Source: Nevskiaceae bacterium
Lineage (GTDB): Bacteria; Pseudomonadota; Gammaproteobacteria; Nevskiales; Nevskiaceae
Length of the DNA: 64,000 nucleotides
Direction of reading: 5' to 3'
Assembly (NCBI GenBank): GCA_008012115.1
Contig: SSEB01000015.1
Span: 1-64,000, forward strand
Below the pieces are notes generated by a model, which worked only from the letters and a program-made list of their open reading frames with translations, made no database searches and had not been told where the DNA came from. The number at the start of each line of letters is the position of its first letter. Position 1 is the stretch's first letter. Position numbers and translations under genes: made by a program. This document shows positions 2 to 40,472 of the stretch, in pieces.

Positions 2-2287
2 TCCAGCGACCCGAACCAGGACTACGCCAACCTGCTCAAGTCCTGGACGCTGTTGGGCAAGGGCGTGGCGAGCAACAAGCTGCTGAGCAAGCCCTCCGAT
101 CCCGCGCAGCACCACAGTGGCGGCCAGCCCTGGCCGGTGAACAGCCAGGCCTACAACGCCATGAAAGTCGTGCTGACCTGCTGGGACCAGCCCGACAGCT
201 GTGCGGCGATGCTCGCCGGCGGTGTCACTGCGCCAGTGACGCCACTGCCGCTTCTGGGCAGCAAGCACGCGCAGCATCTCTGGGACAGCTATTGCGCCAA
301 CAGCGGCAACCCGCTGCCGGACGGCGCGGTGCTGCCGCAGGACCCGCGCCAGCTGATCCGCCCCGGCGTCAACGCCGGCAAGGCTGTGTACTACAACGCC
401 TGGTGGGAGGACTGCCGCGTCAACCTCACCGCCGACGAGCAGCGGCCCAAGACCTGCGGCGACTACCGCAAGCGGCGCGACCGCGGCCTGAGCTTCCTGG
501 AAGATGAACTGCCGGTGTCGTCGGTCACTGCCGCCGCCTACAACGACACCTGGAAGAAATGGGGCCTGACCTCGCGTCCCGACAATTTCGACCAGCTCTA
601 CACGTTGCGCTACGGCCTCAACCATGCGCCGTTCCGTAATCCCTACCCGCTGCCGGGCGAGGATCCCAACGCCACCAACGGCGGCAGCGGCCAGTTGCCG
701 CTGGGCCTGCGCCAGATGAAGGACGCCACCGGCAAGTGGACCAGCCAGATCGGCACCGCTGCCTGTTTCCAGTGTCACGGCGGACAGGTCGGCGATCCCG
801 CCGCCGGCGAGCCGGAGTTGATCACGCTCGGCAACCTCGGCCTGGGCAACAACAACTACGATGTGGTGATCGCCGGCCAGGACGCGGGGCCGTTCGCCGG
901 CACGCCGCTGTCGCCGCTGCTGCCTGCGACCAGCGTCGACAGCCTGTTCAACATCGGCATCAAGCAGCGCGGCCAGAACAACGCGGTCGGCGCCTTCGAG
1001 GTGCTGATCACCCTGCTCGATCTCGATTCGCTGGGCCTCAATCCCGATCCGCTGAAGACCATCGTCGGCGCCACTGGCGTCCAGGATCAGGCGCATCCGC
1101 TGGCGCACACGCAGGACACGCCGGCGTGGTGGAACTTCGGCTCGCGTCCGCGCAAGTTCTTCGATGCCGGCGTTTCCAACGACAGCACGCGCATCATCAT
1201 GGCGGCCGGTCCCGGCGACTACCAGAACCTGGTGACGCTGGACGGCAAGGCCTACCGCGACCGCATCAAGGCCTACGACGAGGATCTGGCGACCTTCTTC
1301 CTGTCGCTGAAATCGCCGGAGTGGCCGCAGGGCTATTGCACCAACACCGACGGCACGCCGGTGACCAACGCCAAGCCCGGCTGCATCGACCGCGCGCTGG
1401 CGGAGCAGGGCGCGGTGCTGTTCCACAGCAAGAACCTGTGGGCGATGGACGGCAACAAGGATCGCCCCAAGCCGCTGGGCGGCAACGGCTCCTGCGCCAG
1501 CTGCCATGGCGTCTACTCGCCGCGCTACGTCAATGACCCGGCCTACCTCGAGACGCCGGCGCTGGAAGGCGTGGCCGGGCACATCTCGCCGCTGGCCGTG
1601 ATCGACACCGACCACGCACGCTCCGACATGCTGACGCCGACCCTGCGCCAGCGCTGGGTCAGCACCTACTGGGGCTATCCGGACGGCACGCCGGGCTGGA
1701 TCGATCCGGTGAACAAAAACCCCGTGCAGGAAGCGCTGGACGACGATTTTCCGATGGCGCTGCGGCCCACCGGCTTGTGCGAGTGGGAGCAGGAGGTGAT
1801 CGGTTACCAGGCGCCACCGCTGTACGGCGTCTGGGCCACGGCCCCGTATTTCCACAACGGCTCGGTGCCGACGCTCGACGAAGTGCTCGCCTCGTCCAAG
1901 CGCAAGCCGATCTGGCGTCGCAAGCTGCAGACGCTGGATGGGGTCACCGGCTTCGATCAGCGCATGAACGTGGCCTACGACTACGACGCCGTCGGCTGGA
2001 AGCATGACACGCTGAGCTGCAGCGATCTCCCCGGCGACCCGTTGGCCAACTGCAATCCCGTCAATGACCAGGGGCCCTCGCTGACGCAGATGGTGCAGAA
2101 TTTCCTCAACGGCATGGTCGCGTGGAGCGGCGTGCTGCCCGTGCCTGACCTCGCGCCCGGCTCCTCCGACAAGCGCTTCATCTATGACACGCGCATCCTC
2201 GGCAATGGCAACGGCGGCCACATCTTCACCGACGTGCTCACCGACCAGGAGCGCAAGGCCATCATCGAGTACCTGAAGACGCTATGA
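2..2287 (+). CDS. Di-heme cytochrome c, peroxidase/MauG or RoxA-like (5' partial)
   Basis: The reading frame is already open at base 2, so the N-terminus and signal peptide lie outside the window; 761 residues are visible. Two covalent heme motifs are seen, CFQCH (Cys at visible residue 255) and CASCH (about 498), plus the block PYFHNGSVPTLDEVL near residue 616 that is typical of the bacterial di-heme peroxidase/MauG superfamily. The two heme motifs are about 243 residues apart, wider than I recall for classical CcpA enzymes, so this is an enlarged member; the rubber oxygenases RoxA/RoxB are one enlarged branch. A periplasmic or secreted redox enzyme is likely; the substrate cannot be read from sequence. 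Its stop overlaps the start of the TlpA gene (ATGA), so the two are translationally coupled. Confidence 0.8.
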   Translation, partial: SSDPNQDYANLLKSWTLLGKGVASNKLLSKPSDPAQHHSGGQPWPVNSQAYNAMKVVLTCWDQPDSCAAMLAGGVTAPVTPLPLLGSKHAQHLWDSYCANSGNPLPDGAVLPQDPRQLIRPGVNAGKAVYYNAWWEDCRVNLTADEQRPKTCGDYRKRRDRGLSFLEDELPVSSVTAAAYNDTWKKWGLTSRPDNFDQLYTLRYGLNHAPFRNPYPLPGEDPNATNGGSGQLPLGLRQMKDATGKWTSQIGTAACFQCHGGQVGDPAAGEPELITLGNLGLGNNNYDVVIAGQDAGPFAGTPLSPLLPATSVDSLFNIGIKQRGQNNAVGAFEVLITLLDLDSLGLNPDPLKTIVGATGVQDQAHPLAHTQDTPAWWNFGSRPRKFFDAGVSNDSTRIIMAAGPGDYQNLVTLDGKAYRDRIKAYDEDLATFFLSLKSPEWPQGYCTNTDGTPVTNAKPGCIDRALAEQGAVLFHSKNLWAMDGNKDRPKPLGGNGSCASCHGVYSPRYVNDPAYLETPALEGVAGHISPLAVIDTDHARSDMLTPTLRQRWVSTYWGYPDGTPGWIDPVNKNPVQEALDDDFPMALRPTGLCEWEQEVIGYQAPPLYGVWATAPYFHNGSVPTLDEVLASSKRKPIWRRKLQTLDGVTGFDQRMNVAYDYDAVGWKHDTLSCSDLPGDPLANCNPVNDQGPSLTQMVQNFLNGMVAWSGVLPVPDLAPGSSDKRFIYDTRILGNGNGGHIFTDVLTDQERKAIIEYLKTL

Positions 2288-2784
2288 AGCGCTGGCTCGC
2301 GCGCATCGCGCTGTGTCTGCCGCTGACGGCCGCGATGCCCGTGCACGCACTGGAGGCGGGCGCACCGGCGCCGACGCTGAGCGCGCCGGACCGCGCGCAT
2401 CGCGACGTGACGCTGGCGCAGTTCAAGGGCAAGGTCGTTTACGTGGATTTCTGGGCCTCGTGGTGTGCACCCTGCCGCGAGGCGATGCCGGCGCTGGATA
2501 CGCTGTACCAGCGCTATCGCGAGCGTGGCCTGGTGGTGCTGGGCGTCAACGTCGATACCGACCGGCTGCCGGCGCAGCGCATGCTGGAGCACTACCAGCC
2601 CACGTTCCCGGTGTTGTTCGATCCGCAGGGGAAATGGCCGGAGGCGTTCGGCCTGAAGGACATGCCGTCGGGCTATCTGATCGATGCCCAGGGCGTGATC
2701 CGTTTTGTGAAGCGCGGCTACCGGCCGCAGGATTTGCTGTCGTTGGAAACCACGATCAAGGCTGCTCTGGGGGAGCCGCAATGA
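2284..2784 (+). CDS. TlpA/ResA-type periplasmic thioredoxin
   Basis: A 166-residue protein with an N-terminal signal peptide (cleavage plausible after MPVHA, about residue 22) and a thioredoxin fold of the AhpC/TSA-Redoxin type. The active site WCAPC lies at residues 60-64, followed by a helix starting REAMPALDTL, as in TlpA, ResA and DsbE. Such proteins keep heme-binding cysteines reduced during cytochrome c maturation or serve as dedicated reductants. Position directly after a di-heme cytochrome c gene, with a 4-base overlap, supports a role in maturing that cytochrome. It also overlaps the following DUF4266 gene by ATGA. Confidence 0.9.
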   Translation: MKRWLARIALCLPLTAAMPVHALEAGAPAPTLSAPDRAHRDVTLAQFKGKVVYVDFWASWCAPCREAMPALDTLYQRYRERGLVVLGVNVDTDRLPAQRMLEHYQPTFPVLFDPQGKWPEAFGLKDMPSGYLIDAQGVIRFVKRGYRPQDLLSLETTIKAALGEPQ

Positions 2785-3002
2785 CCATCCACAGGATCCG
2801 CATTACCAGCCTGCTGATGGCGGCGCTCGCGCTCGCCGGTTGCACCACGGTCCAGCCCTGGCAGCGCGGCGATCTCGCGCGGCCCGGCATGGCCTTCGAA
2901 TCGGACCCGTTGCTGGCGGGTTACCGGCATCACGTCGAGACCAGCAAGGAAGCCTCCTCGGGTGGCCCGACCCTGGGTGGCGGCGGCTGCGGGTGCAACT
3001 GA
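2781..3002 (+). CDS. Small DUF4266-type lipoprotein
   Basis: A 73-residue protein. The ATG at 2781 overlaps the stop of the TlpA gene. It has a lipoprotein signal with the lipobox LAGC, so the mature protein would be acylated at that cysteine. The body carries PWQRGDLARPGM and ends in a Gly-rich stretch with CGCN, two further cysteines close together. TlpA, DUF4266 and DUF3570 genes recur as neighbours in other proteobacteria, from my knowledge of the families, but the function is unknown. The terminal cysteines could be redox partners of the adjacent thioredoxin; that is inference. Confidence 0.8.
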   Translation: MTIHRIRITSLLMAALALAGCTTVQPWQRGDLARPGMAFESDPLLAGYRHHVETSKEASSGGPTLGGGGCGCN

Positions 3003-4183
3003 TGAGCCAGCATTCTTCGCGCCGCGCTTCACTCTCCGCGCTGACCGCCGCCGCGCTGGCCTTGCCGGGTCTCGCGCGCGCCGAACTGCAGACCGACTAT
3101 CTCTACTCGCACTACCAGGAAGGCGATCTGCCGGCCGACCGCAGCGCCAGCGGCAAGTCGTCCGAGCGTTACACGGTGGATTCGCACCTGTTCCGCCTCG
3201 CCGCGCCAGTGGCTGACAATGTCGCCCAGCTCGATCTCACCTACGAGACCATGAGCGGCGCCAGTCCCTGGTGGGTGCAGCCGGATGCCAACGGCAAGCC
3301 GGTACAGGTGATGAGCGGTGCCAGCATCAGCGATCACCGCATCGACGGCGAGTTGAGCTACGGCCTGCCGCTGGGCGGTGTCGACTGGGGCCTGCGTCTG
3401 GGCTACTCCGCCGAGCGCGACTACCGCGCCCTGCACAGCGGCGTCGAAGCGCAGTACACCCCGGAGACCAAGGATTTCACTCTCAGCGGCGGCATCGGCT
3501 ACTCCGCCGATCGTGTCGAGCCGACCGACGGTGGCAGCGCGAAATACCCGACGCGCATCGTCTCGGCAAATCGCAAGGGCCTGACGGCCTACGGCGGGGT
3601 GTCCTGGGTGCTGCGACCGCAGACCACGGTGCAGACTTCGCTGAGCTATGCGCGCGATAGTGGCTTCCTCAGCGATCCTTACAAGGAGGCCTACGTGGTG
3701 GCCGCGGCCGGCACTGTCGCCGACAGCCGGCCTGACGGACGCCAGAGCTGGGCGCTGAGCGGCAAGCTGCGTCACTATGTCAGCCGCATGGGTCTCGCGC
3801 TGCGCGTCGACTACCGGCTGTATCACGACGACTGGCGTACCACCTCTCACACCCTGGAGCTGGGCGTCGACAAGACGCTGGGTGAAACCTGGCGGGTCAG
3901 TCCGTCGCTGCGCTGGTACAGCCAGTCGCAGGCCTACTACTACGCGCCGTATTACAACGGCTTTCGCAGCGACGGCTTTGCCTCCAGCGACTACCGCCTG
4001 TCGCCCTATGGCGCGCTGTCCGGCCGCGTCGACGTGCGCAAGGCGCTGGGCGAATGGGAACTGGGCGGCGGCGTCGAGTACTACGACGCCTCAGGCCACT
4101 ACGCGCTGAAGAAAGTCGAGATGGAGAATCCCGGCCTGCTGAGCTACTGGATCGTCAACCTGAGGCTGGGCTACCGCTTCTGA
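3002..4183 (+). CDS. DUF3570 family outer-membrane beta-barrel protein
   Basis: A 393-residue protein starting at an ATG that shares one base with the previous stop (TGATG). The N-terminus is a Sec signal peptide ending near GLARA (about residue 27). The rest alternates short polar and aromatic strands such as LSYGLPLGGVDWGLRLGYS and closes with NLRLGYRF, whose terminal aromatic is the usual beta-barrel assembly signal. It fits the DUF3570 family. As the last gene of the four-gene overlap operon it probably supplies an outer-membrane component for the cytochrome/thioredoxin system. Only 10 bp separate its stop from the convergent LuxR gene, and no terminator hairpin is visible there. Confidence 0.82.
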   Translation: MSQHSSRRASLSALTAAALALPGLARAELQTDYLYSHYQEGDLPADRSASGKSSERYTVDSHLFRLAAPVADNVAQLDLTYETMSGASPWWVQPDANGKPVQVMSGASISDHRIDGELSYGLPLGGVDWGLRLGYSAERDYRALHSGVEAQYTPETKDFTLSGGIGYSADRVEPTDGGSAKYPTRIVSANRKGLTAYGGVSWVLRPQTTVQTSLSYARDSGFLSDPYKEAYVVAAAGTVADSRPDGRQSWALSGKLRHYVSRMGLALRVDYRLYHDDWRTTSHTLELGVDKTLGETWRVSPSLRWYSQSQAYYYAPYYNGFRSDGFASSDYRLSPYGALSGRVDVRKALGEWELGGGVEYYDASGHYALKKVEMENPGLLSYWIVNLRLGYRF

Positions 4184-16587: not shown

Positions 16588-18510
16588 ATGGCAAGACTCA
16601 TCAACATCGACAACGGCGGCACGCTGACCGACATCTGCGTGATCGACGGTGATCGTGTCTACCGCACCAAGACGCTGACCACGCCGTACGATCTGTCGAA
16701 ATGCTTCTTCGACGGTCTCCGCAAAGTCTCGAAGAGCATCTACGGCGAGGAAGATCTGCAGTCGCTGCTCACCAGCACCGACCATATCCGCTACTCCACC
16801 ACGCAGGGCACCAATGCCCTGGTCGAGCGCAAGGGGCCGCGCCTGGGCCTGGTCGTCGGCGGCACGCTGACCGCCGCGGCGCTGCAGCGCAACGCCGGCG
16901 AAAAGGAACTGTTCGCCGCACTGGTCGGCGAGCGCGTCGTCAGCCTCGACCCCGATCAGGATGAAGCCGCACTGGAGCTGGCCGCGGTGCGCGCCATCAA
17001 CGCACTGGCTTCGGCAGGCGCCAATCGCATTGTCGTCGCCGTCGGCGGCGCCGACCGCAATGCGGCCGAGCAGCGGCTCAAGCGGCTGTTGCTGCGCAAG
17101 TTCCCGCCACATCTGCTGGGCGCGCTGCCGCTGCTGTATTCCCACGAGGTGGTGGAGGACGAAGACGATGCGCGCCGCAGCTGGACGGCGCTGTTCAACG
17201 CCTTCCTGCATCCGGCGATGGAGCGCTTCCTCTACAACGCCGAGCATCTGCTGCGCGAGAACAAGAGCCAGAACCCGCTGCTGATCTTCCGCAATGACGG
17301 ACACTCGGCGCGCGTGGCCAAGACCATCGCCAGCAAGACCTACAGTTCCGGTCCGCGCGGCGGCGCCGAGGGCGCGCGGGCGCTGGCGGCGCACTATGGC
17401 TTCAAGCAGCTGCTGTCGATGGACGTCGGCGGCACCACCACCGATATCGGCCTGGTCGAGAACGGCGAAGTGCGCGCGCATCGGCGCGGCAGGATCGAGG
17501 GCGTCGACATCTCCTTCCCGTTGTGCGACGTGGTCAGCATCGGCGTCGGTGGCAGTTCGATCATCAAGGTCGAGGGCGGTGCGATCAAGGTCGGGCCGGA
17601 GAGCGTCGGCAGCACACCGGGGCCGGCCTGCTTCGGTCTCGGCGGCAAGGAAGCGACCATCACCGACGTGTTCCTGCTGCAGGGACTGCTCGACCCGGCT
17701 TCCTATTTCGGCGGCGAACTGAAGATCGATGTCGAACGCGCGCGCGCGGCGGTGGCGGAAAAAATCGCCGGGCCGCTGGGAATCTCGGTGGACGAGGCGG
17801 TGACGAAGATGGAGGCGGCCTGGGTGGCCAAGGTCGCCGACAGCCTCAAGGCGTTCGCCGCGATAACGCCGGACACCACGCTCGCGGCCTTCGGCGGCGC
17901 CGGGCCTTTCGTGGTGTGCAAGGTGGCGGAGGCTGCCGGCATCCGGCGCGTCATCATTCCTGGCCTGGCCGCGGTGTTCTCGGCCTTCGGCATCGGCTTC
18001 TCCGACATCGGCCATCAGTACGAGGCGCCACTCAAGTCCAAGGACAACGAGGGGCTGCAGGCGACGCAGGAGGAGCTGCTGCAGCGCGCGCGCCGAGGCA
18101 TGTTCGCCGAAGGCTTCGATCTCGGCGACTGCAAGGTGGAAAAGTCGCTGCTGCTGACCGAAGGCGGCGGCGAGAGCCGCGTGCCGCTGGCCAACGGCAA
18201 GTTGCCCGGCAAGATTCCGGCGACCACGCGCGCCTCGGTGTCGCTCACCGTGGTCAAGACCATGCCGCATCCGCAGCTCAGCGGCCGCTTTGGCGGACAG
18301 ACCCACCCGGCGGTGGCGCAGGGCGAGCGCAAGCTGCAAGTCGGCGCCGTGCCGCTGTATCGCGCCGAGGAGCAGGTGGCGGGCGCCAGCGCGCAGGGAC
18401 CCGCGGTGCTGGAGGAGGCGTTCTTCACCTGCCGACTCGAAGCCGGCTGGCAGTTCGAGTTCAACGCCAGCGGCGACATTCTTCTGACCCGCGCTGCAGC
18501 CAAGGCCTAG
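16588..18510 (+). CDS. Hydantoinase A/oxoprolinase-type carboxylase subunit (acetone/acetophenone carboxylase-like)
   Basis: A 640-residue ASKHA-fold protein of the HyuA/oxoprolinase family. The first phosphate loop reads DNGGTLTD (residues 8-15; the family norm is DIGGTFTD), the second DVGGTTTDIG lies near residue 280, and GTNALVERKGPRLG is also characteristic. The size and the order of this gene, a small zinc-type subunit, a second HyuA and a HyuB match the acetophenone carboxylase core (ApcA, B, C, D) better than three-gene acetone carboxylase. Such enzymes use ATP to carboxylate a methyl ketone to a beta-keto acid in the cytoplasm. GAGG precedes the start. Substrate not determined. Confidence 0.85.
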   Translation: MARLINIDNGGTLTDICVIDGDRVYRTKTLTTPYDLSKCFFDGLRKVSKSIYGEEDLQSLLTSTDHIRYSTTQGTNALVERKGPRLGLVVGGTLTAAALQRNAGEKELFAALVGERVVSLDPDQDEAALELAAVRAINALASAGANRIVVAVGGADRNAAEQRLKRLLLRKFPPHLLGALPLLYSHEVVEDEDDARRSWTALFNAFLHPAMERFLYNAEHLLRENKSQNPLLIFRNDGHSARVAKTIASKTYSSGPRGGAEGARALAAHYGFKQLLSMDVGGTTTDIGLVENGEVRAHRRGRIEGVDISFPLCDVVSIGVGGSSIIKVEGGAIKVGPESVGSTPGPACFGLGGKEATITDVFLLQGLLDPASYFGGELKIDVERARAAVAEKIAGPLGISVDEAVTKMEAAWVAKVADSLKAFAAITPDTTLAAFGGAGPFVVCKVAEAAGIRRVIIPGLAAVFSAFGIGFSDIGHQYEAPLKSKDNEGLQATQEELLQRARRGMFAEGFDLGDCKVEKSLLLTEGGGESRVPLANGKLPGKIPATTRASVSLTVVKTMPHPQLSGRFGGQTHPAVAQGERKLQVGAVPLYRAEEQVAGASAQGPAVLEEAFFTCRLEAGWQFEFNASGDILLTRAAAKA

Positions 18511-18537
18511 CGCGCATCCAACCAGGGATCGATCTCC

Positions 18538-18975
18538 ATGAAAGTCCTGATTACCGAATACCTGCGCATCAATCTCGATACCGAGCAGTGGGAGTGCCGC
18601 CGCTGCGGCCATGTCCACGGCAGTGCGCGCGACAACTACAAGCGCGGCCTGCTGGTCTACGACCGCGATCCGCGCGAGATCCACAAGCCCCTGCTCGACA
18701 CCAGGCTCTATGAGCGTACCTATTCGCCGGATCCGGCCTGGTGCCGCATCCTCGAATACTACTGCGCGTCCTGCGGCACCATGGTGGAGGCGGAATACCT
18801 GCCGCCGGGCCATCCCCCGTTGTACGACATCGAGCTGGACATCGATGCGCTCAAGCTCCAGTGGAAGGATCGCAAGGAAGTCGTCGAGCCAACCGTCGGT
18901 CCCGATCTGGCGCTGGAAAAGGTCAAGAACAACCGCGCCCTTCATGCCGACCACGCACATGGCCACAAGCATTGA
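18538..18975 (+). CDS. Small zinc-binding carboxylase subunit (acetone carboxylase gamma-like)
   Basis: A 145-residue protein with two CxxC pairs, CRRC (about residues 21-24) and CASC (about 77-80), spaced as in a zinc-ribbon, matching the small gamma subunit of acetone and acetophenone carboxylases. The C-terminus is an unusual His-rich tail (HADHAHGHKH) that might bind metal. It sits between the two HyuA-type genes, 27 bp after the first; its stop codon is embedded in the ribosome site (TGAGGAGG) of the next gene, implying stoichiometric co-translation. Confidence 0.85.
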   Translation: MKVLITEYLRINLDTEQWECRRCGHVHGSARDNYKRGLLVYDRDPREIHKPLLDTRLYERTYSPDPAWCRILEYYCASCGTMVEAEYLPPGHPPLYDIELDIDALKLQWKDRKEVVEPTVGPDLALEKVKNNRALHADHAHGHKH

Positions 18976-18985
18976 GGAGGCGCGC

Positions 18986-21115
18986 ATGAAACGAGTATCC
19001 GTGGATATCGGCGGCACCTTCACCGACTGCTTCGTCGCCTGGGAAAACCGCTACGTCGAGGGCAAGGCGCTGACCACCCACCATAACCTTGCGCTGGGCT
19101 TCAATGCCGCGCTGGCCGATGCCTGCAAGCAGCTGGACGTGGAAAACACCACGCTGCTGTCGCAGGTCGACTCCGTACGCTATTCGACGACGCTGGGCAC
19201 CAATGCCCTGATCGAGCGCAAGGGACCGCGCATCGGCGTGCTGGTCACCACCGGGTTCAAGAGCACCATCCCGCTGTCGCGCGCACGCGGCTATGGCGAA
19301 GGACTGCCGGAAAGCGAGCAGATGGATATTCCCAACGCCGTCCGCCCGCAGCCGATCGTGCCGATCCCGATGATCCGCGAGGTGCGCGAGCGCGTGGACT
19401 ATCTCGGCAAGGTGTTCTGGGCTTTGGACGAGGAGGATGTGCGCCTGCGCATCCGCGAACTGGTGGACGCCGGCGCCGAAGCGCTGGTGGTGATGTTCAC
19501 CAACAGCGTGGTCAATCCTGCGCATGAACTGCGCGTGCGCGAAATATTCCTGGAGGAATACCCGGCGCACCTGCTCGGCGCGATCCCGATGCTGCTGTCG
19601 CACCAGGTTGCCGGCCGCAAGGGCGAATATGCGCGCGGCACTTCGACCATCATGGACGCCTTCCTGCACCAGACCATGTACCACGGCCTTGGCACGCTGG
19701 AGCTGAACCTGCGCGCGCAGGGCTACAACAAGCCGATGCTGGTCAGCCACAATTCCGGCGGCATGGCGCAGCTCAACTCCACCGACGCGCTGCAGACGGT
19801 GCACTCCGGTCCCGTCTCGGGCGTCGCCGCCAGCGAACACCTGGCCGCCGCGGCGGAACTGGGCAACGTCGTCGCCACCGATATGGGCGGCACCAGCTTC
19901 GACATCGGCATCGTCGACCAGGGCGGCGTCAAGCACTACGATTTCAACCCGGTGATCGACCGCTGGCTGGTGTCGATCCCGATGGTGCACCTGGTGACGC
20001 TGGGCGCCGGCGGCGGTTCCATTGCGCGCTTCGACCGACTGTTCAACTCGGTGGAGATCGGTCCGCAGTCGGCCGGATCCGACCCGGGGCCGGCCTGCTA
20101 CGACCGCGGCGGTCTCAAGCCGACGGTGACCGACGCCGACCTCGTGCTCGGCTATCTCGATCCGAAGAACTACGCCAACGGCCGCATCCCGCTCAATCCC
20201 AAGCGCGCCAAGCAGGCGATCGAGGACCACCTTTGCGATGAGCTCGACATGAACGTGATCGAGACCGCCAAGCTGATCAAGCGCAACGTCGATGCCAACA
20301 TGGCCAACGGCATCGCCACCGAACTGCGCACGCGGGGCTACGAGCCCCGCGATTTCACCATCCTGGCCTACGGCGGCAATGGCCCGCTGCACGCCTGCGG
20401 CATTGCCAACGCGCTGGGCGTGAGCAAGATCCTGGCGCCGCCGTACTCGTCGACCTTCTCGGCTTGCGGCGCCGGCAACGTCAACCAGATGCACATCCAC
20501 GAGATGAGCACCTGGACCGTGCTGTTCAATCCTGCGACCAAGTCCTTTTTCTCCGACTACGAGACCTTCAACCGCGATGTCGAGGAGCTGGAACGCCGCG
20601 GCCGCGAAGACCTGCTGCGCCAGGGCATGCAGGCCGGAGACATCCGCTACCGGCTGGAACTGGACATGCGCTACGGCAACCAGCGCGTGCAGACGGCGGT
20701 GGTGACGCCGCTCAACCGCCTGCATGCGCAGCGCGACGTGCTGGCGCTGATGGACCAGTTCCACAAGAGCTATGGCGCGCGCTTCGGCGAGGGCAGCCAG
20801 TCGCCTGAAACCGGCGTGCGCATCAATACCGTGCGTGTCTGCGCCTACGTCGAACAGCCCAAGGTGCGGTTCTCCAAGCTCAAGCTCAACGGCAATACGC
20901 GGCCGGCGCCGGCACCGGTCGGACGCCGCGAGTGCCATTTCGTCGGTCTGCCCAAGGCGGTCGATACCCCGATCTATGGCGAGGATGCGCTGGCCGAAGG
21001 CACGCAGATCGAGGGGCCGGCCATCGTCACCACGCGCGCGACGACATACCTGGTGGAGCCGGGCTGGACCTACCACGCGGCGGCCCAGGGCGGCGTCTGG
21101 TTCATCCGCAAGTGA
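18986..21115 (+). CDS. Second hydantoinase A/oxoprolinase-type carboxylase subunit
   Basis: A 709-residue protein beginning at the ATG at 18986, after GAGGAGG. It has the canonical loop DIGGTFTD (residues 7-14), GTNALIERKGPRIG, a second phosphate loop DMGGTSFDIG near residue 300 and GAGGGSIARFD. It is a paralog of the 16588 subunit; in the acetophenone-type enzyme the two HyuA-like chains form different ATP or substrate sites. Coupled to the small subunit upstream. The following 85 bp contain no gene and possibly a degenerate dispersed repeat. Confidence 0.88.
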   Translation: MKRVSVDIGGTFTDCFVAWENRYVEGKALTTHHNLALGFNAALADACKQLDVENTTLLSQVDSVRYSTTLGTNALIERKGPRIGVLVTTGFKSTIPLSRARGYGEGLPESEQMDIPNAVRPQPIVPIPMIREVRERVDYLGKVFWALDEEDVRLRIRELVDAGAEALVVMFTNSVVNPAHELRVREIFLEEYPAHLLGAIPMLLSHQVAGRKGEYARGTSTIMDAFLHQTMYHGLGTLELNLRAQGYNKPMLVSHNSGGMAQLNSTDALQTVHSGPVSGVAASEHLAAAAELGNVVATDMGGTSFDIGIVDQGGVKHYDFNPVIDRWLVSIPMVHLVTLGAGGGSIARFDRLFNSVEIGPQSAGSDPGPACYDRGGLKPTVTDADLVLGYLDPKNYANGRIPLNPKRAKQAIEDHLCDELDMNVIETAKLIKRNVDANMANGIATELRTRGYEPRDFTILAYGGNGPLHACGIANALGVSKILAPPYSSTFSACGAGNVNQMHIHEMSTWTVLFNPATKSFFSDYETFNRDVEELERRGREDLLRQGMQAGDIRYRLELDMRYGNQRVQTAVVTPLNRLHAQRDVLALMDQFHKSYGARFGEGSQSPETGVRINTVRVCAYVEQPKVRFSKLKLNGNTRPAPAPVGRRECHFVGLPKAVDTPIYGEDALAEGTQIEGPAIVTTRATTYLVEPGWTYHAAAQGGVWFIRK

Positions 21116-21200
21116 CGGCGAGAGCCGTCATCCCCGCGTTCCACATGGACTTCCTGCGGTCGCAGGTGGGGATTCAGAACAAGATAGTGAGGAGATTGTC

Positions 21201-23468
21201 GTGAACGATCAGATTTCCAAGGAAGACAAGGCGCTGCTCGACAAATTCCTGGCCGACAACCAGCTGTTCCTCGGCCCGGACCCGGAGATCATGCGCAATC
21301 ACAGCCTGACGCCACGTTCCAGGGCTGAGGATGAAATCCTCAAGAAGGGACTGGACAATCACCAGGTGCACCATGTGCGCGGCCTGATCAATGCCGCGCT
21401 GTCGGAAGCCTTCACCATGGTCAACCAGATGGGTGCCGCGCCCGGCGCCAAGTGGGGCGATCTGGTCACTGGCATCTACACCGCACAGGGTGATCTGGCG
21501 ATGATCGCGCCGCACGGCATCATCGCCTTCGCGGCCTGCTGCTTCTACCCGATCCGCTTCATCGTCAAGTACTGGAGCAACGATCCGACCGTCGGCGTCA
21601 AGGACGGCGATGGCTTCATTCATAACGATGCGCGCTACGGCGGCATTCACAACACCGACCAGTCGATGATGATGCCGCTGTTCTACAAGGGCGAGCTGGT
21701 GTGCTGGCTGTCGAGCACGATCCACGAAGGCGAGAACGGCGCGACCGAGCCCGGCGGCATGCCGGCGGCGGCCGAGAGCAAGTACGACGAGGGCATCAAG
21801 ATGTCGCCCTTCAAGGTCGTGGAGAATTTCCAGCTCAAGCGCGACCTCGTCACCTTCCTGCAGAACTCGGTGCGCGATCCCAAGCTGCAACTCGAGGACA
21901 TGAAGGTCAAGCTGCACGCCGTCATGCGCCTGCGCGAGCGCATCATCGCCATCCTCGACCAGTACGGCCGCGATGCCCTGATCGGTACGCTGCGCCTGCA
22001 CCTGGAGGACACCGAGACCGAGATGCGCCGCCGCATCCGCGAGATGCCGGACGGCACCACCCGCGTGCTGCAGTTCATGGACTCCTCGCTGCGCGAGAAC
22101 TGCCTGCAGAAGATCAGCTGCGCGATCACGGTCAAGGGCGACCGCCTGATCATGGATTTCCGCGGCACCGCGCCGCAGTTCCTGAACCGCTCGGTCAACA
22201 CCAACATCGCCTCGTTCAAGGCGGCGTTGTGCACCGGTCTGCTGCAGAACATCTGGCCGGACCTGCCGCACACGATGGCCGTGCTGTCACCCATCGAGAT
22301 CATCACCGACCGCAACTCCATCGTCGATGCCGAGGGCGAAATGCCGCAGGCGATGAGCCTGATGCCGCTGTTCAAGGGCTGCGTGGTCTGGACCATCCCG
22401 ATGAACAAGTTCAACTACAGCGTGCCGCACAAGTACTCGGCGGTGATCGCCTCGCAATACGACCAGGCGGCGACCTTCATCTATGGCGGCCTGACCCAGC
22501 ACGGCGATGTGACCGGAAATTTCTGCGGCGACATCAACGGCAACGGCCAGGGTGCGCGCAGCCATGCCGACGGCGAGCACTCGGTGTCGCCGGTGTTCGG
22601 CTTCATGTGCGATTCCGGCGAACACGAGATCAACGAGGAAGACACGCCGATCATCCGCCTGGGAGCGCAGCGTCTGGCCAAGGACCGCATTGCCTGGGGA
22701 AAGTATCGCGGCGGCATGGGCTACGAACAGATCGCCACCGCGCGCGGCTCGGCGCTGTGGGGCTTCATGACCGGCTGCGAGGGCTCCAAGTTTCCGTCGG
22801 CGCAGGGTCTGTTCGGCGGCTATTCCTGCCCGTCCTACCAGCTGATGAAGATCAAGGGCATCAACATCTTCGAGGAGCTGAAAAAGGACCCGAAGGTCGT
22901 GGAAGTGTTCGACATCGTCAAGCTGATGAACGAGCGGCCGATCAAGGGCGGCAAGTACTCCAGCAACGACATGGGCATGACCTTCGAGGTCTGCAACGAG
23001 GGCGAGATCTACATGATCTGCCAGGGTTCCGGCGGCGGTTATGGCGACGTGCTGGAGCGCGATCCGGCGCTGGTGATGAAAGATCTTCGAGAGGATCTGA
23101 TGTCGCACGAGAACGCCCGCGACATCTACAAGGTGGTCTACGACGAGAAGACCCTGGTGGTGGACGAGGACGCCACAAAGAAGCTGCGCGACGACTATCG
23201 CCGCGAGCGCATCCGGCGCGGCAAGCCCTTCGAGCAGTTCTGCAAGGAATGGGTCACGCCGGAGCCGCCGAAGGACATCCCGTATTTCGGCTCATGGGAC
23301 AACAACCGGGAAATCTACGCGACCACCATGGGGCAGCGCGTGAAGATGCCCGCCGAGCAGTTGCAGGGCGCCTTCATGCTGAACCCGAAAGACGTCCGCA
23401 TCATGCAACTCGAAGGCGAACTTGAGAAGGTCAAGGCGCAGCTCGACGACTGCCGCAAGAAAGCCTGA
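21201..23468 (+). CDS. Hydantoinase B/oxoprolinase-type carboxylase subunit
   Basis: A 755-residue HyuB-family protein. The start is GTG at 21201, preceded by GTGAGGAG at good spacing and giving VNDQISKEDKALL; upstream codons in frame have no ribosome site. Family blocks include GDGFIHNDARYGGIHNTDQ, FYKGELVCW, TIHEGENGATEPGGMP and GGGYGDVLERDP. A short coiled coil closes the C-terminus (MQLEGELEKVKAQLDD). HyuB chains carry the carboxyl-transfer site in acetone/acetophenone carboxylases. Fourth subunit of the enzyme encoded from 16588. Confidence 0.88.
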   Translation: MNDQISKEDKALLDKFLADNQLFLGPDPEIMRNHSLTPRSRAEDEILKKGLDNHQVHHVRGLINAALSEAFTMVNQMGAAPGAKWGDLVTGIYTAQGDLAMIAPHGIIAFAACCFYPIRFIVKYWSNDPTVGVKDGDGFIHNDARYGGIHNTDQSMMMPLFYKGELVCWLSSTIHEGENGATEPGGMPAAAESKYDEGIKMSPFKVVENFQLKRDLVTFLQNSVRDPKLQLEDMKVKLHAVMRLRERIIAILDQYGRDALIGTLRLHLEDTETEMRRRIREMPDGTTRVLQFMDSSLRENCLQKISCAITVKGDRLIMDFRGTAPQFLNRSVNTNIASFKAALCTGLLQNIWPDLPHTMAVLSPIEIITDRNSIVDAEGEMPQAMSLMPLFKGCVVWTIPMNKFNYSVPHKYSAVIASQYDQAATFIYGGLTQHGDVTGNFCGDINGNGQGARSHADGEHSVSPVFGFMCDSGEHEINEEDTPIIRLGAQRLAKDRIAWGKYRGGMGYEQIATARGSALWGFMTGCEGSKFPSAQGLFGGYSCPSYQLMKIKGINIFEELKKDPKVVEVFDIVKLMNERPIKGGKYSSNDMGMTFEVCNEGEIYMICQGSGGGYGDVLERDPALVMKDLREDLMSHENARDIYKVVYDEKTLVVDEDATKKLRDDYRRERIRRGKPFEQFCKEWVTPEPPKDIPYFGSWDNNREIYATTMGQRVKMPAEQLQGAFMLNPKDVRIMQLEGELEKVKAQLDDCRKKA

Positions 23469-23499
23469 CGCCGATATCCAATACCACAGGAGCAGCAGC

Positions 23500-24318
23500 A
23501 TGAATGACATCAACAAAGCTTTCCGCGTCGACGGCAAGGTGGCTTTGATCAGTGGCGCCGCGCGCGGCATCGGTGCCGCCATCGCCGAGGCACTGGTGCA
23601 GGCTGGCGCAACCGTGCTGATCACCGATGTGCTCGACCAGGTCGGGCAGGACACGGTGGCGCGATTGCGCAAGGCCGGTGGCAAGGCCGAGTTTCACCAC
23701 CACGACGTCACCAACGAGGCGCAATGGGAATCCGCGGTCGCCGCCGCGGTGAAGCATTTCGGCCGCCTGGATATCGTCGTCAACAACGCCGGCATCGAGA
23801 CTGCGGCGCTGCTGACGCAGTGCACGGTCGAGGATTTCCGCCGTGTCATGGAGGTCAATGTCACCGGCGTATTCCTCGGCCTCAAGCACGCGGTACGTGC
23901 GATGGCGCCGGGCGGCGCGGCGGGCAAGGGCGGCACCATCATCAACATGTCCTCGGTGGCTGGTCTGATCGGCACCACCGGCCATATCGCCTACCACACG
24001 TCCAAGGGTGCGGTGCGTCTGATGACCAAGGCGGCGGCGGTGGAATGCGCGCAGCTCGGCACCGGCATCCGCGTCAACTCGGTGCATCCGGCCATCGTGT
24101 CGACCGAGATGGGCACCAACTTCATCCAGCACGCCGTGGATCTCCAGCTGGCGCCGGACTACGCCACCGCCGAGGGCGCGTTCAAGGCGGCCCACCCGAT
24201 GGGCCGCTTCGGCGAGCCGGCGGACGTGGCCAATGCCGTGGTGTACCTGGCCTCCGACGCGTCCCGCTGGGTGACGGGCACGGAGATGGTGCTCGACGGC
24301 GGCTACACGGCGGCCTGA
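23500..24318 (+). CDS. Short-chain dehydrogenase/reductase
   Basis: A 272-residue classical SDR starting at 23500 after ACAGGAGC. The cofactor loop SGAARGIG is at residues 18-25, NNAG follows near 95, and the catalytic Ser and YHTSK are present. An acidic residue after the second strand (TDVLDQ) suggests NAD(H). The C-terminus GTEMVLDGGYTA is typical of the family. In the carboxylase operon it could oxidise a secondary alcohol to the ketone substrate or act on a beta-hydroxy acid; neither is proven. Confidence 0.9.
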   Translation: MNDINKAFRVDGKVALISGAARGIGAAIAEALVQAGATVLITDVLDQVGQDTVARLRKAGGKAEFHHHDVTNEAQWESAVAAAVKHFGRLDIVVNNAGIETAALLTQCTVEDFRRVMEVNVTGVFLGLKHAVRAMAPGGAAGKGGTIINMSSVAGLIGTTGHIAYHTSKGAVRLMTKAAAVECAQLGTGIRVNSVHPAIVSTEMGTNFIQHAVDLQLAPDYATAEGAFKAAHPMGRFGEPADVANAVVYLASDASRWVTGTEMVLDGGYTAA

Positions 24319-24322
24319 GCGC

Positions 24323-25156
24323 ATGGGCGCGTTGCTCGACCTGGCGGCATCCTCCTCGTCGCTGTGGCTGGACTACGGCGACTATGCCGGCCGTCTGCTG
24401 GCCGGCGGCCAGGTGCCCTGGAGCGATGTCTCCGCCTACGTCGCGTGGCAACGCAAGGCCCAGGGCCTGCTCAAGTCGGATGTGATCGCGCTGCCGCTGG
24501 CGCCGCTCAGCGAGGCCTGGCTCGCCGCCCATCCCGGGCTGCGCGAGGCCATGGCCGGCAAGCGTCGCGCGGTATTCCCGATCAAGACCCTGCTGGCCGA
24601 CGAAGCACTGCGCACCCATATCGCCGAGCTGCTGTCCGGCTTGCGGGCCAGCTTCGCCCGGCAGCCGCTGGCCCTGGTGCTGCCGTCACCGCGGGCGTGG
24701 ATCGCGCTGGCCTATCGGCAGGCGCATGGTCCGCAGGATGACGCCACCAGCGACGCCGACGATGTCGACTCGGCCGCGATGTACGTCGCCGATTTTCTGC
24801 GCAGCTTCGGCGATTGCGGCATCGACGCGCTGCTGCTGCAGGAAACGGCCGGCGCTGAGCCGACCGATGCCGCAGAGCTGGAGTGGTACCGCCCGGTGTT
24901 CAACGTCTGCGCGCATTATCGCTGGGACTGCGGCCTGCACCTGCCGGCGGCCGCCCATGCGCCGGGCGCTGTCGAAGGGCTGGGTTTCGTGGTCGCGCCG
25001 CAACGGCTCGACATCGGACAGTCTGTCGTCGCGCTGGATGAAGCGTTCTGGACGGGCGCCGAGCCACCACCCGCGACCGCGGGATTGCGCTTTGCCGTGG
25101 TCCCGGCCGGCGCCAGCCCGGAAGCGGTGCTGGATCGCCTGGCGGTGCTGCGATGA
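24323..25156 (+). CDS. Uncharacterised 277-residue protein of the carboxylase operon
   Basis: I do not recognise the family with confidence. The protein is soluble, without signal peptide or membrane segment. Stretches such as YVADFLRSFGDCGIDALLLQE followed by a downstream NVCAHYRWDCGLHLP loosely recall TIM-barrel proteins of the uroporphyrinogen decarboxylase/methionine synthase type. It starts 4 bp after the SDR stop and overlaps the DUF3237 gene (ATGA), so it belongs to the operon. By position and size it could be the equivalent of the fifth acetophenone carboxylase subunit (ApcE, about 34 kDa); this is a guess. Confidence 0.6.
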   Translation: MGALLDLAASSSSLWLDYGDYAGRLLAGGQVPWSDVSAYVAWQRKAQGLLKSDVIALPLAPLSEAWLAAHPGLREAMAGKRRAVFPIKTLLADEALRTHIAELLSGLRASFARQPLALVLPSPRAWIALAYRQAHGPQDDATSDADDVDSAAMYVADFLRSFGDCGIDALLLQETAGAEPTDAAELEWYRPVFNVCAHYRWDCGLHLPAAAHAPGAVEGLGFVVAPQRLDIGQSVVALDEAFWTGAEPPPATAGLRFAVVPAGASPEAVLDRLAVLR

Positions 25157-25617
25157 GCCTGTCCTTCGATCTGGAGCCGGTCTGCCGGTTCAACGCCCGC
25201 CTGCACCACCCGCCCGAGATCATCGGACCGGTGGCCGAGGGCCTGCGCGTCAATTTCCACATTGCCGGCGGCGAGATCGACGGCCCGCGGCTGCGTGGCA
25301 TCGTGCGCCCGGTGGGGGCCGACTGGTTCCTCATGCGCAGCGATGGTGTCGGCCTGCTCGATGTGCGGACCACCATCGAGACCCACGACGGTGCGCTGAT
25401 CCTGATCACCTATACCGGCATCGCCGATGCCGGCGCCGACGGCTACCGCAGATTCCTGCAGGGCGAGCTCCCGGCACGTCTGCCCCTGCGTACGGTGCCG
25501 CGCATGTCGACGGCGCACCCGGCGTATCAGTGGGTCAACCGGACACAGTTTCTCAATATCGGCGAGGCGGACCTTGAGCGCCATGAGGTCGTCTACGACA
25601 TTTATGCGGTGCGTTAG
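25153..25617 (+). CDS. DUF3237 family protein
   Basis: A 154-residue protein with the DUF3237 pattern: an N-terminal strand pair (EPVCRFNARLHHPPEI), GGEIDGPRLRGIVRPVGADW, GVGLLDVRTTIETHDGALI, and a terminal NRTQFLNIG. The family often accompanies aromatic and lipid catabolic genes and is a small beta-barrel of unproven function. ATGA overlap with the preceding gene. Confidence 0.85.
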   Translation: MSLSFDLEPVCRFNARLHHPPEIIGPVAEGLRVNFHIAGGEIDGPRLRGIVRPVGADWFLMRSDGVGLLDVRTTIETHDGALILITYTGIADAGADGYRRFLQGELPARLPLRTVPRMSTAHPAYQWVNRTQFLNIGEADLERHEVVYDIYAVR

Positions 25618-25641
25618 CGGCGCGGTCCAGGAGAACACGCA

Positions 25642-27672
25642 ATGATCAAAGAAGGCGAATTGCTGTGGACGCCGCGAAAGGACTTCGCGCGCGACTCCAA
25701 CCTGTCGTCCTACATGGAATGGTTGCAGCGCGAACGTGGCCAGGCGTTCGCGGACTACGACGCGCTGTGGCGCTGGTCGGTGAGCGACATCGAGGGCTTC
25801 TGGGCCTCGATCTGGGCATACTTCGAGGTGCAGTCGACCACGCCTTACCAGCGCGTGATCGATCGGCGCTCGATGCCGGGCGCCAAGTGGTTCGAGGGAT
25901 CCCAGGTCAATTACGCCGAGCACCTGCTGCGCCGCGAGGCGCAGGCGGGTCCCGATGAAGTGGTGTTCCATCACATGACGGAAACGCGCCCGCTGGCGCG
26001 GATGACCTGGCACGAGCTCGGTCGCCGCGTGCGCATCCTGGCAACGCAGCTGCGTGCCATGGGCATCAAACCCGGCGATCGCGTGGTGTCGTACATGCCG
26101 AACGTGCCAGAGACCGCGATTGCGATGATTGCCGCGACCGCCATCGGCGCGATCTGGTCGTCGGCGGCGCCGGAGTTTGGCGTCAAGACCGTGATCGAGC
26201 GCTTTGCGCAGATCGAGCCGAAACTGCTGTTCGCCGCCGACGGCTACAGCTTCGGCGGCAAGATCTTCCGTCGCGAGGCCGAGGTGCGACGCATCGCCTC
26301 TGAACTGCCGACACTGGAGAAAATCGTCTGGTTGCCATACATGGACCCCGGCTACACCGTGCCGGATCTGCCCAACGTGGTCGCCTGGTCGAAGCTGTTT
26401 GAGCACCCCGATGTGCCGCGCGAGCAATTCAGCTACGAGCGGGTCGCACACGATCATCCGCTGTGGGTGGTGTTCTCATCCGGCACCACCGGCCTGCCCA
26501 AGGCCATCGTTCACAGCCATGTCGGTGTCCTGCTGGAACATCTCAAATTGATGCATTTCCATCTCGGTCTGAGACCGGGATCGACGATGTTCTTCTACAG
26601 CACCACCGGCTGGATGATGTGGAACCTGCTGCTGGCGGCACTGCATACCGGATCGTCGGTGGTGTTGTACGACGGCAATCCGGCATATCCGTCCAACGAT
26701 TTCCTGTGGAAGCTCGCCGCCGACACCGGTACGACCTGTTTTGGCGCCAGCCCCACGTTTATCCAGATGATGGAGAAGGCCGGCCTGGTCCCGCGGGAGC
26801 GCTATGACCTCTCGCGCCTGGAGTCGATGCTGGTGGCCGGCGCGCCTTCGACACCGGAAACCTTTGCCTGGTGCTATCGCTGCGTGAAGAGTGATCTCTG
26901 GGTGACGTCGCAGTCCGGTGGCACCGAGATCTGCAGCGGTTTCGTCGGCGCCGCGCCGCTGCTGCCGGTCTATGCCGGCGAAATCCAGACCCGCATGCTG
27001 GGTATGGACGTGCATGCCTGGAGCGACGACGGCAAGGAACTGATCGATGAGGTGGGCGAACTGGTGGTGACCAGTCCGTTTCCGTCGATGCCGATCTATT
27101 TCTGGAAGGACAGCAACGGCAAGCGCTATCACGATGCCTACTTCGATGTCTTCCCCGGCGTCTGGCGGCACGGCGATTTCATCAAGATCAACGGCCGTGG
27201 CGGCTGCTACATCTACGGGCGCTCGGACTCCACGCTTAACCGCTTTGGCGTGCGTATCGGCACCGCAGAAATCTACCGCGCCGTGGAACAGGTGGACGAA
27301 GTGGCCGACAGCCTGGTGGTCTGCTGCGAGCTGCCGGGCGGGCAGTTCTTCATGCCGCTCTACGTGAAGCTCAAGCCCGGCTACAAGCTCGACGACGCAC
27401 TCTGCAAGCGCATCAACGCCAAGCTGCGTGAGGATTGCAGCCCGCGCCATGTGCCGGACCGCATCTACGCCGTGGCGGCGGTGCCTTACACGCTCACCGG
27501 CAAGAAGATGGAGGTGCCGGTGCGCAAGATCCTGATGGGCTGGCCTCTGGAAAAAGCCGCCAGCCGCGATGCGATGATGAACCCGGACGCCATCGACTAT
27601 TTCGTGCGCTTCGCCCAGGAGTCGATCGACTACCAGTGGCGGCGCGTCGAGCCCAAGGCAGCGCAGGCCTGA
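25642..27672 (+). CDS. Acetoacetyl-CoA synthetase (acetoacetate-CoA ligase)
   Basis: A 676-residue ANL-superfamily ligase with the length and N-terminal cap of acetoacetyl-CoA synthetases (LWTPRKDFARDSNLSSYMEW). The AMP-binding P-loop SSGTTGLPKAI is at about residues 279-289, followed by STTGWMMWN; the catalytic lysine lies in LTGKKMEVPVRKIL near residue 620. It activates acetoacetate or a similar beta-keto acid with ATP and CoA, exactly the product class of a ketone carboxylase, which strongly links it to the upstream enzyme. Good ribosome site CAGGAG. No thiolase follows in this window. Confidence 0.93.
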   Translation: MIKEGELLWTPRKDFARDSNLSSYMEWLQRERGQAFADYDALWRWSVSDIEGFWASIWAYFEVQSTTPYQRVIDRRSMPGAKWFEGSQVNYAEHLLRREAQAGPDEVVFHHMTETRPLARMTWHELGRRVRILATQLRAMGIKPGDRVVSYMPNVPETAIAMIAATAIGAIWSSAAPEFGVKTVIERFAQIEPKLLFAADGYSFGGKIFRREAEVRRIASELPTLEKIVWLPYMDPGYTVPDLPNVVAWSKLFEHPDVPREQFSYERVAHDHPLWVVFSSGTTGLPKAIVHSHVGVLLEHLKLMHFHLGLRPGSTMFFYSTTGWMMWNLLLAALHTGSSVVLYDGNPAYPSNDFLWKLAADTGTTCFGASPTFIQMMEKAGLVPRERYDLSRLESMLVAGAPSTPETFAWCYRCVKSDLWVTSQSGGTEICSGFVGAAPLLPVYAGEIQTRMLGMDVHAWSDDGKELIDEVGELVVTSPFPSMPIYFWKDSNGKRYHDAYFDVFPGVWRHGDFIKINGRGGCYIYGRSDSTLNRFGVRIGTAEIYRAVEQVDEVADSLVVCCELPGGQFFMPLYVKLKPGYKLDDALCKRINAKLREDCSPRHVPDRIYAVAAVPYTLTGKKMEVPVRKILMGWPLEKAASRDAMMNPDAIDYFVRFAQESIDYQWRRVEPKAAQA

Positions 27673-36101: not shown

Positions 36102-37289
36102 CTAGAACGCGTCGCCTGGCACCCGCACCCAGCCTTCCATCAGGATGCGCGCGGAGCGCGACATGATGGCTTTCTTCACCACCCACTGACCGTTCTCCTG
36201 CGCAGCCGCCGCGCCGACGCGCAGCGTGCCGGAGGGATGGCCGAAGCGCACCGCTTCGCGCGCACCACCGCCGGCGGCGAGATTGACCAGGGTGCCGGGA
36301 ATCGCCGCGGCCGTGCCGATAGCGACCGCCGCGGTGCCCATCATCGCGTGATGCAGCTTGCCCATCGACAGCGCGCGCACCAGCAGGTCGACGTCGTCGG
36401 CTTTCACTTCCTTGCCGCTGGAGGCTTTGTAGGTTTTTGGTTTCGACACGAAGGCGATCTTCGGCGTGTGCTGTCGCGTCGCGGCTTCTTCCGGTGTCTT
36501 GATCAGGCCCATGCGCAAGGCGCCGGCCACGCGCATCTGCTCGAATTTCTTGAGCGCCGCGGGGTCGCTGTTGATCTGTTCGCGCAGTTCGGTGCCGGTG
36601 TAGCCGATGTCTTCGGCGTTGACGAAGATCGTCGGGATGCCGGCGGTGATCATCGTCGCCTTGAACGTGCCGAGGCCGGGTACTTCCAAGTCGTCTACGA
36701 GGTTGCCGGTCGGGAACATCGAACCGCCCTCGTCGCCGTCGTCCGAGGGATCGAGAAACTCCAGCACGATCTCGGCAGCGGGGAAGGTGACGCCGTCGAG
36801 TTCGAAATCGCCGGTCTCCTGCACCTGGCCATTGGTGACCGGCACATGGGCGATGATGGTTTTCCTGATGTTGGCCTGCCAGATGCGCACCACGCAGATG
36901 CCGTTCTGCGGCACGCGCGTTGGGTCCACCAGCCCCGCCTGGATGGCGAACGCGCCGGCGGCGGTGGAGAGGTTGCCGCAGTTGCCGCTCCAGTCCACGA
37001 AGGCTTTATCGATCGAAATCTGGCCGTAGAGGTAATCGACATCGTGGCCCGGCTGCGTGCTTTTCGACAGGATCACGCACTTGCTGGTGCTCGACGTCGC
37101 GCCGCCCATGCCGTCGATGTGCGCGGCGTAAGGGTCGGGCGAACCGATCACGCGCAACAGCAGCCTGTCGCGCGCGGCGCCGGGTTGCTGGCAACGCTCC
37201 GGCAGGTCGCCGAGCTTGAAGAACACGCCCTTCGACGTGCCGCCGCGCATATACGTGGCGGGAATCCTGATCTGGGGGAGGTGCGACAT
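36102..37289 (-). CDS. prpF: 2-methylaconitate cis-trans isomerase PrpF
   Basis: A 395-residue protein of the PrpF/DUF453 family, with the start MSHLPQIRIPATYMRGGTSK, the conserved MRGGTSKGVFF segment and SGNCGNLSTAAGAFAI, a glycine and cysteine active-site block of the diaminopimelate-epimerase fold. It works with AcnD in the AcnD/PrpF variant of the methylcitrate cycle, where it isomerises the methylaconitate made by AcnD. Ribosome site AGAGG. It lies between the SRPBCC gene and pyruvate carboxylase in the minus-strand operon. Confidence 0.95.
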   Translation of the reverse strand: MSHLPQIRIPATYMRGGTSKGVFFKLGDLPERCQQPGAARDRLLLRVIGSPDPYAAHIDGMGGATSSTSKCVILSKSTQPGHDVDYLYGQISIDKAFVDWSGNCGNLSTAAGAFAIQAGLVDPTRVPQNGICVVRIWQANIRKTIIAHVPVTNGQVQETGDFELDGVTFPAAEIVLEFLDPSDDGDEGGSMFPTGNLVDDLEVPGLGTFKATMITAGIPTIFVNAEDIGYTGTELREQINSDPAALKKFEQMRVAGALRMGLIKTPEEAATRQHTPKIAFVSKPKTYKASSGKEVKADDVDLLVRALSMGKLHHAMMGTAAVAIGTAAAIPGTLVNLAAGGGAREAVRFGHPSGTLRVGAAAAQENGQWVVKKAIMSRSARILMEGWVRVPGDAF

Positions 37290-37309
37290 CGGGGCCTCTG
37301 GTTGAAGGT

Positions 37310-37759: not shown

Positions 37760-37787
37760 GGGAATCTCTCCTGTGGTCGTTGAAACA

Positions 37788-37829: not shown

Positions 37830-37864
37830 CTCCAGGAAATCGACAGCCTGGATGGCCCTTTTGT

Positions 37865-40462: not shown

Positions 40463-40472
40463 ACGTGTTTCT

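Follow-up and report, generated by a model that had tools for sequence, protein, structure and literature searches.

The window analysed here (bases 1 to 64,000 of contig C24, SSEB01000015.1, from the Nevskiaceae bacterium assembly GCA_008012115.1) opens in the middle of a gene, in a frame without its 5' end. Behind this truncated gene, which encodes a c-type cytochrome, come genes for a thioredoxin, a lipoprotein (DUF4266) and a DUF3570 protein. Each gene's stop codon overlaps the start codon of the next, and the four form an operon. By its sequence, the cytochrome belongs to RoxC, a relative of the rubber oxygenases RoxA and RoxB. The new observation is that RoxC travels with genes for short-type DUF3570, DUF4266 and thioredoxin (here called the module), often together with ApbE. 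Our preferred interpretation, to which we assign a probability of about 45%, is that RoxC, a tri-haem lipoprotein of the outer membrane, works with this dedicated redox module as an electron-dependent haem oxygenase. Both RoxC and the DUF3570 flavinylation clusters are without a known role; the strong genetic tie between them offers each family a partner and merges two open questions of function into one. The link was not found in the openly readable literature (subscription papers, such as Sharma et al. 2020, were outside its scope), and the main text of PMC10837239 contains no occurrence of thioredoxin or DUF3570.

Co-occurrence was assessed in 85 genomes of the window's order. RoxC was matched in 32 of these at an expectation value (E) of 0.001 or less and 30 were counted, G032 and G057 being dropped as partial (59 bits or less), while weak partial rows of other genomes were excluded. 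Matches to DUF3570 were split by hand into a short type (36 copies of about 160–225 bits, including two contig-end fragments in G002) and a long type (21 copies of 300–456 bits). A weak group of about 150 bits or less (G015, G016, G021, G031, G039, G054, G055 and G058) was excluded, as were two fragments (G004:C40 and G028:C458), and no RoxC gene is found within 10 kb of any of them. Short-type DUF3570 is present in 28 of the 30 RoxC genomes and in 4 of the 55 others; for the long type, the counts are 11 and 10, respectively. Fisher's test over the whole order ignores relatedness, and a permutation within genera served as the control. In the six genera that are mixed for RoxC, the short type is found in 14 of 15 RoxC-positive and 1 of 28 RoxC-negative genomes (P ≤ 5e-6); the corresponding numbers for the long type are 8 of 15 and 8 of 28 (P 0.06).

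The two genes are also physically close. RoxC is located within 5 kb of 18 of the 36 short-type copies and within 25 kb of 23, which is every copy sharing a contig with RoxC; random placement would lead one to expect 0.37 of 32 copies within 5 kb (copy numbers and genome sizes rounded). Eighteen of the 19 short-type copies within 10 kb are on the same strand as RoxC, and none of the 21 long-type copies is within 100 kb of it. Outside the order, both genes are present in eight of the genomes to which locus searches led; distances taken by hand place the short type within 2 kb of Rox in six (in one case on the opposite strand) and at 5.2 kb in a seventh, with the eighth giving no distance. No thioredoxin, DUF4266 or DUF3570 gene is present within about 9 kb at RoxA and RoxB loci. 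G089 and G090, from outside the order and with best Rox genes that score as RoxB, contain no DUF3570. Hand inspection of 15 genomes that have RoxA, RoxB or a myxobacterial Rox showed DUF3570 to be absent, weak or far from any strong Rox match. A RoxC search over 369 genomes of the class returned three with a match: the window's own genome, one of the same order and a new one.

The family assignment of the window protein draws on profiles, a tree and the predicted fold. The NCBIfam model for RoxC (NF051462) scores 1178.7 bits (cut-off 900) over profile positions 80–812, the N-terminus being missing, while the models for RoxB (NF050034, 547.4 bits, cut-off 900) and RoxA (NF050033, 456.4 bits, cut-off 1000) remain below their thresholds. 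In a quick tree of 110 Rox proteins, with Shimodaira–Hasegawa-like approximate likelihood ratio support only and seven of the 34 distant loci L121–L154 as the outgroup, the protein falls within a clade of 30 rows (support 99), apart from the RoxA and RoxB clades (100 each); this clade includes 23 of the 24 proteins bearing the signature FFDAG.S..STRI. Its best solved relative by sequence is RoxA (4b2n, E 5e-109). A fold search with its AlphaFold2 model (predicted local distance difference test score, pLDDT, 85.6) puts RoxA at the top (Z 36.1, root-mean-square deviation 3.0, 598 residues, 40% identity), with hydrazine synthase at Z 11.2 and MacA, CcpA and MauG at around 8–10.

The kinship with RoxA and RoxB rather than with classical peroxidases, which a preliminary description of this DNA had put forward with phylogeny as the check, is thus borne out, and the tree lends no support to a placement among the peroxidases. 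Identity as a classical peroxidase was rejected on fold (RoxA Z 36.1, peroxidases 10 or less) and tree. CcpA, MacA and MauG have the core fold and the MauG motif in common with the window protein, but the similarity extends over about 240 residues rather than 598, and the window protein is about twice as long. A RoxC fed by the module might still reduce H2O2 or lipid hydroperoxides at the outer membrane in the fashion of CcpA, a role that the common core and MauG motif would allow and that an electron supply would suit. RoxA, which is much the nearer relative in both fold and sequence, lacks peroxidase activity according to the accessible part of PMC6311187, and the catabolic neighbours (FMO-type monooxygenases, ligases, DUF1302) do not point to stress defence, making such a role improbable.

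The missing N-terminus is located on another contig, C21, bases 1–44 of which are an exact match to the start of the window, on the other strand. Reading into C21 leads to a TTG start codon, preceded by GGAGGAG, and to a lipobox (LLLAAVAAC, with, as judged by eye, the cysteine after the cleavage site, AVAAC). The same part contains a third, N-terminal haem motif, CRTCH. The joined protein has around 850 amino acids and its mature form around 828 (89 kDa, isoelectric point, pI, 5.3). Because the read-through supplies CRTCH, the protein is counted as tri-haem; the sequence indicates a tri-haem lipoprotein split by an assembly break, and its earlier description as di-haem would be an artefact of the contig edge, correct for the motifs CFQCH and CASCH but blind to the third haem and the lipobox. 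The wide spacing of these two motifs, also pointed out then, does hold: 243 residues, against 198–201 in RoxA, 198–206 in RoxB and 212–233 in members with the RoxC signature (alignment A3), although part of it is due to a 17-residue insert. This insert distinguishes the window protein from other RoxC proteins (NF051462), those of Fontimonas thermophila and Oceanococcus atlanticus (PMC10837239, available part) being alike in lipobox, CRTCH, CFQCH/CASCH, Phe and Ala at the positions of RoxA Trp302 and Phe317, and acidic pI. With RoxA and RoxB (4b2n, Steroidobacter cummioxidans 35Y) it has the fold, two haem motifs and the MauG motif in common; it differs from them in the replacement of Trp302 by Phe387 and Phe317 by Ala402, in being a lipoprotein with a third haem and in its link to the module.

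RoxC has been described as the third and largest Rox branch (243 of 458 sequences), consisting mostly of lipoproteins, many with a third haem, in which Ala and Phe replace Phe317 and Trp302 (PMC10837239). In the available part of the same report, purified RoxC of F. thermophila (RoxC_Fth) and O. atlanticus (RoxC_Oat) showed no rubber cleavage and no latex-dependent O2 uptake, and RoxC_Fth was isolated with all haem as Fe(III). In RoxA, replacing Phe317 by alanine or other residues abolishes activity wholly or for the most part, and the catalytic haem of such variants is Fe(III) at rest, with no O2 (PMC6797691, available part). These results bear on the suggestion, made in the preliminary description, that the region serves polyisoprenoid degradation. 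Kinship with RoxA and RoxB and a pathway of methyl-ketone type in the window would suit a rubber oxygenase in a rubber-degradation region. Against this stand membership of RoxC, the two substitutions, with which the published RoxC proteins were inactive and one of which costs RoxA its activity, the finding of no RoxA or RoxB above cut-off in a profile search of the window's genome, and a carboxylase that is not a recurrent neighbour. Rubber degradation by the window protein is unlikely, and a rubber oxygenase at the heart of a rubber-degradation region is extremely so. Lcp was rejected as a candidate; the sole PF09995 match in the genome (51 bits, in a 307-residue frame) is to the general family only.

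The two inactive RoxC proteins could be matched to loci in our set. The L037 protein fits the published parameters of RoxC_Fth (gene of 2454 bp, 88.9/86.9 kDa, pI 5.04, F/Y/W 31/24/17, LGG/CAG) as well as its residues His44, His312, His538, His98 and His776; the published table gives PYDH673 where we read PYFH674, and the Phe and Ala positions are off by one. This gene is about 3.3 kb from DUF3570, DUF4266 and thioredoxin genes on the same strand. L058 fits RoxC_Oat (2136 bp, LVA/CNG, His204, His437).

The preliminary description had given the cytochrome its own thioredoxin, lipoprotein and barrel, and all three genes are indeed found downstream. DUF3570 is a confirmed substrate of ApbE in Chlorobium, where it has two [ST]GA[ST] motifs (PMC8238504). 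In the short-type proteins, the first motif is SGAS in all 31 and the second SGAS or SGAT in 29; long-type proteins (L167–L171), which are unlinked to RoxC, have a single TGAS in four of five cases and none in the fifth. The C-terminal CGC is kept in 19 of 19 DUF4266 proteins and WC[AGP]PC is present in 23 of 23 module thioredoxins. The model of the window DUF3570 (pLDDT 90.2) contains 16 long strands by our own count and matches barrels of the BcsC, PelB and FadL type. Strand order alone places both SGAS motifs in the loop that follows the third of these strands, on the long-loop side of the barrel, which would be the outer side, and the protein is predicted to be flavinylated. An ApbE gene is present at the module loci of 16 genomes; the window's genome has its own on contig C18, 56–69% identical to 14 of these 16, and its DsbD on contig C5. 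One locus, L074, assembles in a single place DUF1302, a MalT/LuxR regulator, tri-haem RoxC, full-length DsbD, ApbE, DUF3570, DUF4266 and thioredoxin, all on one strand except the regulator. Flavinylation clusters of ApbE, DUF3570, DUF4266, thioredoxin and DsbD have been described before, with the same families, two [ST]GA[ST] motifs and a CXC end as here; the accessible part of that report (PMC8238504) leaves their function uncertain and names no RoxC partner, while here the partner is RoxC or, in six loci, DUF1552.

From these computed features (family, three haem motifs, lipobox, linkage, co-occurrence, conserved motifs and barrel model) we infer a direction of electron flow, an oxygenase reaction and a kind of substrate. 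Electrons would pass from cytosolic thioredoxin via DsbD to the TlpA-like thioredoxin and the CXC lipoprotein DUF4266, and from there via flavin mononucleotide (FMN) on the DUF3570 barrel to the N-terminal haem domain of RoxC and its catalytic haem. The position of the N-terminal haem domain, between module and enzyme, is suggested by two loci (L059 4523–5320 and L060 15659–16387) in which this domain is a separate lipoprotein gene with two CxxCH motifs adjoining DUF4266 and DUF3570; the neighbouring Rox proteins are without it, as if one protein had been divided between two genes. In RoxA, Phe317 helps to maintain the catalytic haem in a stable Fe(II)-O2 state. With alanine at this position, the haem of RoxC would revert to Fe(III) and have to be reduced again, either at every turnover or whenever it autoxidizes. 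On this view, RoxC would be no self-sufficient rubber dioxygenase, and its substrate, located outside the cell, would be hydrophobic and probably unsaturated.

A wider picture, which we regard as speculative, has RoxC as the end enzyme of an outer-membrane chain, in which DUF3570 as a flavinylated porin passes reducing power from DsbD and thioredoxin to a haem oxygenase at the surface. Just as tentatively, this route could be the flavin-based equivalent of multihaem conduits, and it could account for the apparent deadness of purified RoxC: if RoxC draws its electrons from the module, assays of RoxC alone are uninformative. If true, this would amount to a flavin-based means of powering oxidative chemistry at the cell surface. 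The same genes would also accommodate a flow in reverse, with RoxC oxidizing its substrate and electrons moving inwards through the flavin barrel to envelope thiols or quinones, as sequence does not fix the direction. The presence of DsbD in L074 and the outward delivery of electrons in the DsbD-linked clusters described in the available part of PMC8238504 make this very unlikely.

Several observations weigh against an electron-dependent RoxC oxygenase served by its own module. The whole case is computational, and the role of the thioredoxin might be in haem attachment instead. There is no ApbE in the window operon. G014 and G067 carry RoxC without short-type DUF3570; in the Solimonas-type genomes G050–G053, the module and the nearest RoxC are 14–22 kb apart or on different contigs; and no module is present within about 8 kb of the Oceanococcus RoxC (L058), whose genome has one elsewhere, beside another Rox gene (L076). 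Rox paralogues with Phe, Leu, Ile or Trp at the positions of residues 317 and 302 also occur near the module, so alanine-317 and the module do not strictly track each other. Nor is the module specific to RoxC, since it is found beside DUF1552 in six loci (L155–L160), five of which (L155–L159) also have a DUF1592/DUF1588 cytochrome. For this reason, the module may be a general service unit for large secreted cytochromes.

TlpA/ResA-like thioredoxins serve cytochrome c maturation. The module might accordingly act in maturation and display, with the thioredoxin keeping the CxxCH cysteines reduced, DUF4266 and the barrel inserting or displaying the cytochrome, and no electrons being delivered for turnover; the thioredoxin family and the presence of the module beside other large cytochromes would both agree with this. 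A chaperone needs neither the conserved flavinylation motifs nor the clustered ApbE, and the loci of RoxA and RoxB do without the module, so we consider it unlikely, if not as improbable as the peroxidase role. For RoxC as an electron-dependent oxygenase, the gene neighbourhood offers some indication of the substrate. TetR and AraC regulators, DUF1302/DUF1329, FMO-type monooxygenases and acyl-CoA ligases recur at RoxC loci, which suggests that it acts on hydrophobic compounds. A TetR gene (L004 399–1073, contig C21) is divergent from the window roxC and has homologues of 63–82% identity in 10 other loci.

Further into the window, positions 16588–27672 contain acetophenone-carboxylase-like genes below curated cut-offs and an acetoacetate-CoA ligase above cut-off, likely forming a methyl-ketone pathway, and positions 36102–44473 the methylcitrate genes prpF, acnD and prpC with the regulator prpR. 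The ketone carboxylase and methylcitrate genes to which the preliminary description had drawn attention are therefore present, but this group, with the ligase, is 14–42 kb from roxC, and carboxylase homologues occur at one of 83 other loci searched (1e-10). The same search gave no match for MMPL, DUF1329, two lipase-like genes, M28 or the nearer AraC gene. Other genes of the window and C21 were rejected as conserved RoxC partners, with few or no matches in these loci. Features of the window operon and of two nearby genes are listed in Table 1. The MalT/LuxR-type gene is a possible regulator of the operon, judging by its counterpart in L074, and the tie between the DUF1302 gene and the operon is uncertain.

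Table 1. Genes and motifs of the window operon and nearby genes with homologues adjoining RoxC in L074.
Feature	Position	Strand	Basis
roxC, 5' end missing; tri-haem lipoprotein RoxC	2..2287	+	NF051462, 1178.7 bits; N-terminus on contig C21, L004 310..2, minus strand
Haem motif CFQCH, catalytic-domain haem 1 of RoxC	764..778	+	sequence motif
Haem motif CASCH, catalytic-domain haem 2 of RoxC	1493..1507	+	sequence motif
Phe387 of RoxC, position of RoxA Trp302	1160..1162	+	alignment A3
Ala402 of RoxC, position of RoxA Phe317	1205..1207	+	alignment A3
MauG motif PYFHNGSVP of RoxC	1844..1870	+	alignment A3
TlpA/ResA-like thioredoxin, overlaps roxC stop; WCAPC at 2461–2475	2284..2784	+	Pfam Redoxin, AhpC-TSA
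DUF4266 lipoprotein, C-terminal CGCN; CXC at 2988–2996	2781..3002	+	PF14086, 70.4 bits
Short-type DUF3570, predicted 16-stranded outer-membrane barrel	3002..4183	+	PF12094, 185.3 bits; model pLDDT 90.2
First SGAS motif of DUF3570, residues 85–88, predicted FMN attachment site	3254..3265	+	motif defined in PMC8238504 (available part)
Second SGAS motif of DUF3570, residues 105–108, predicted FMN attachment site	3314..3325	+	motif defined in PMC8238504 (available part)
MalT/LuxR-type regulator; homologue adjoins RoxC in L074	4194..7022	-	Pfam; 35% identity to L074
DUF1302 protein; homologue adjoins RoxC in L074	12281..14554	+	Pfam; 47% identity

About 7 kb upstream of roxC, contig C21 (L004 7544–8977) encodes a protein of the fatty-acid-desaturase family fused to rubredoxin (AlkB-like), matched in one of the 83 loci at the same threshold. 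RoxC-type genes have multiplied in G026, G050, G051 and G052, each of which has 10 to 18 matches, with several in tandem. In G001:C1:413533-419154, two RoxC units are contained in a single open frame of 1885 amino acids, possibly a tandem fusion, and the RoxC-type match at G062:C39:38128-40068 has one internal TGA and may be a pseudogene.

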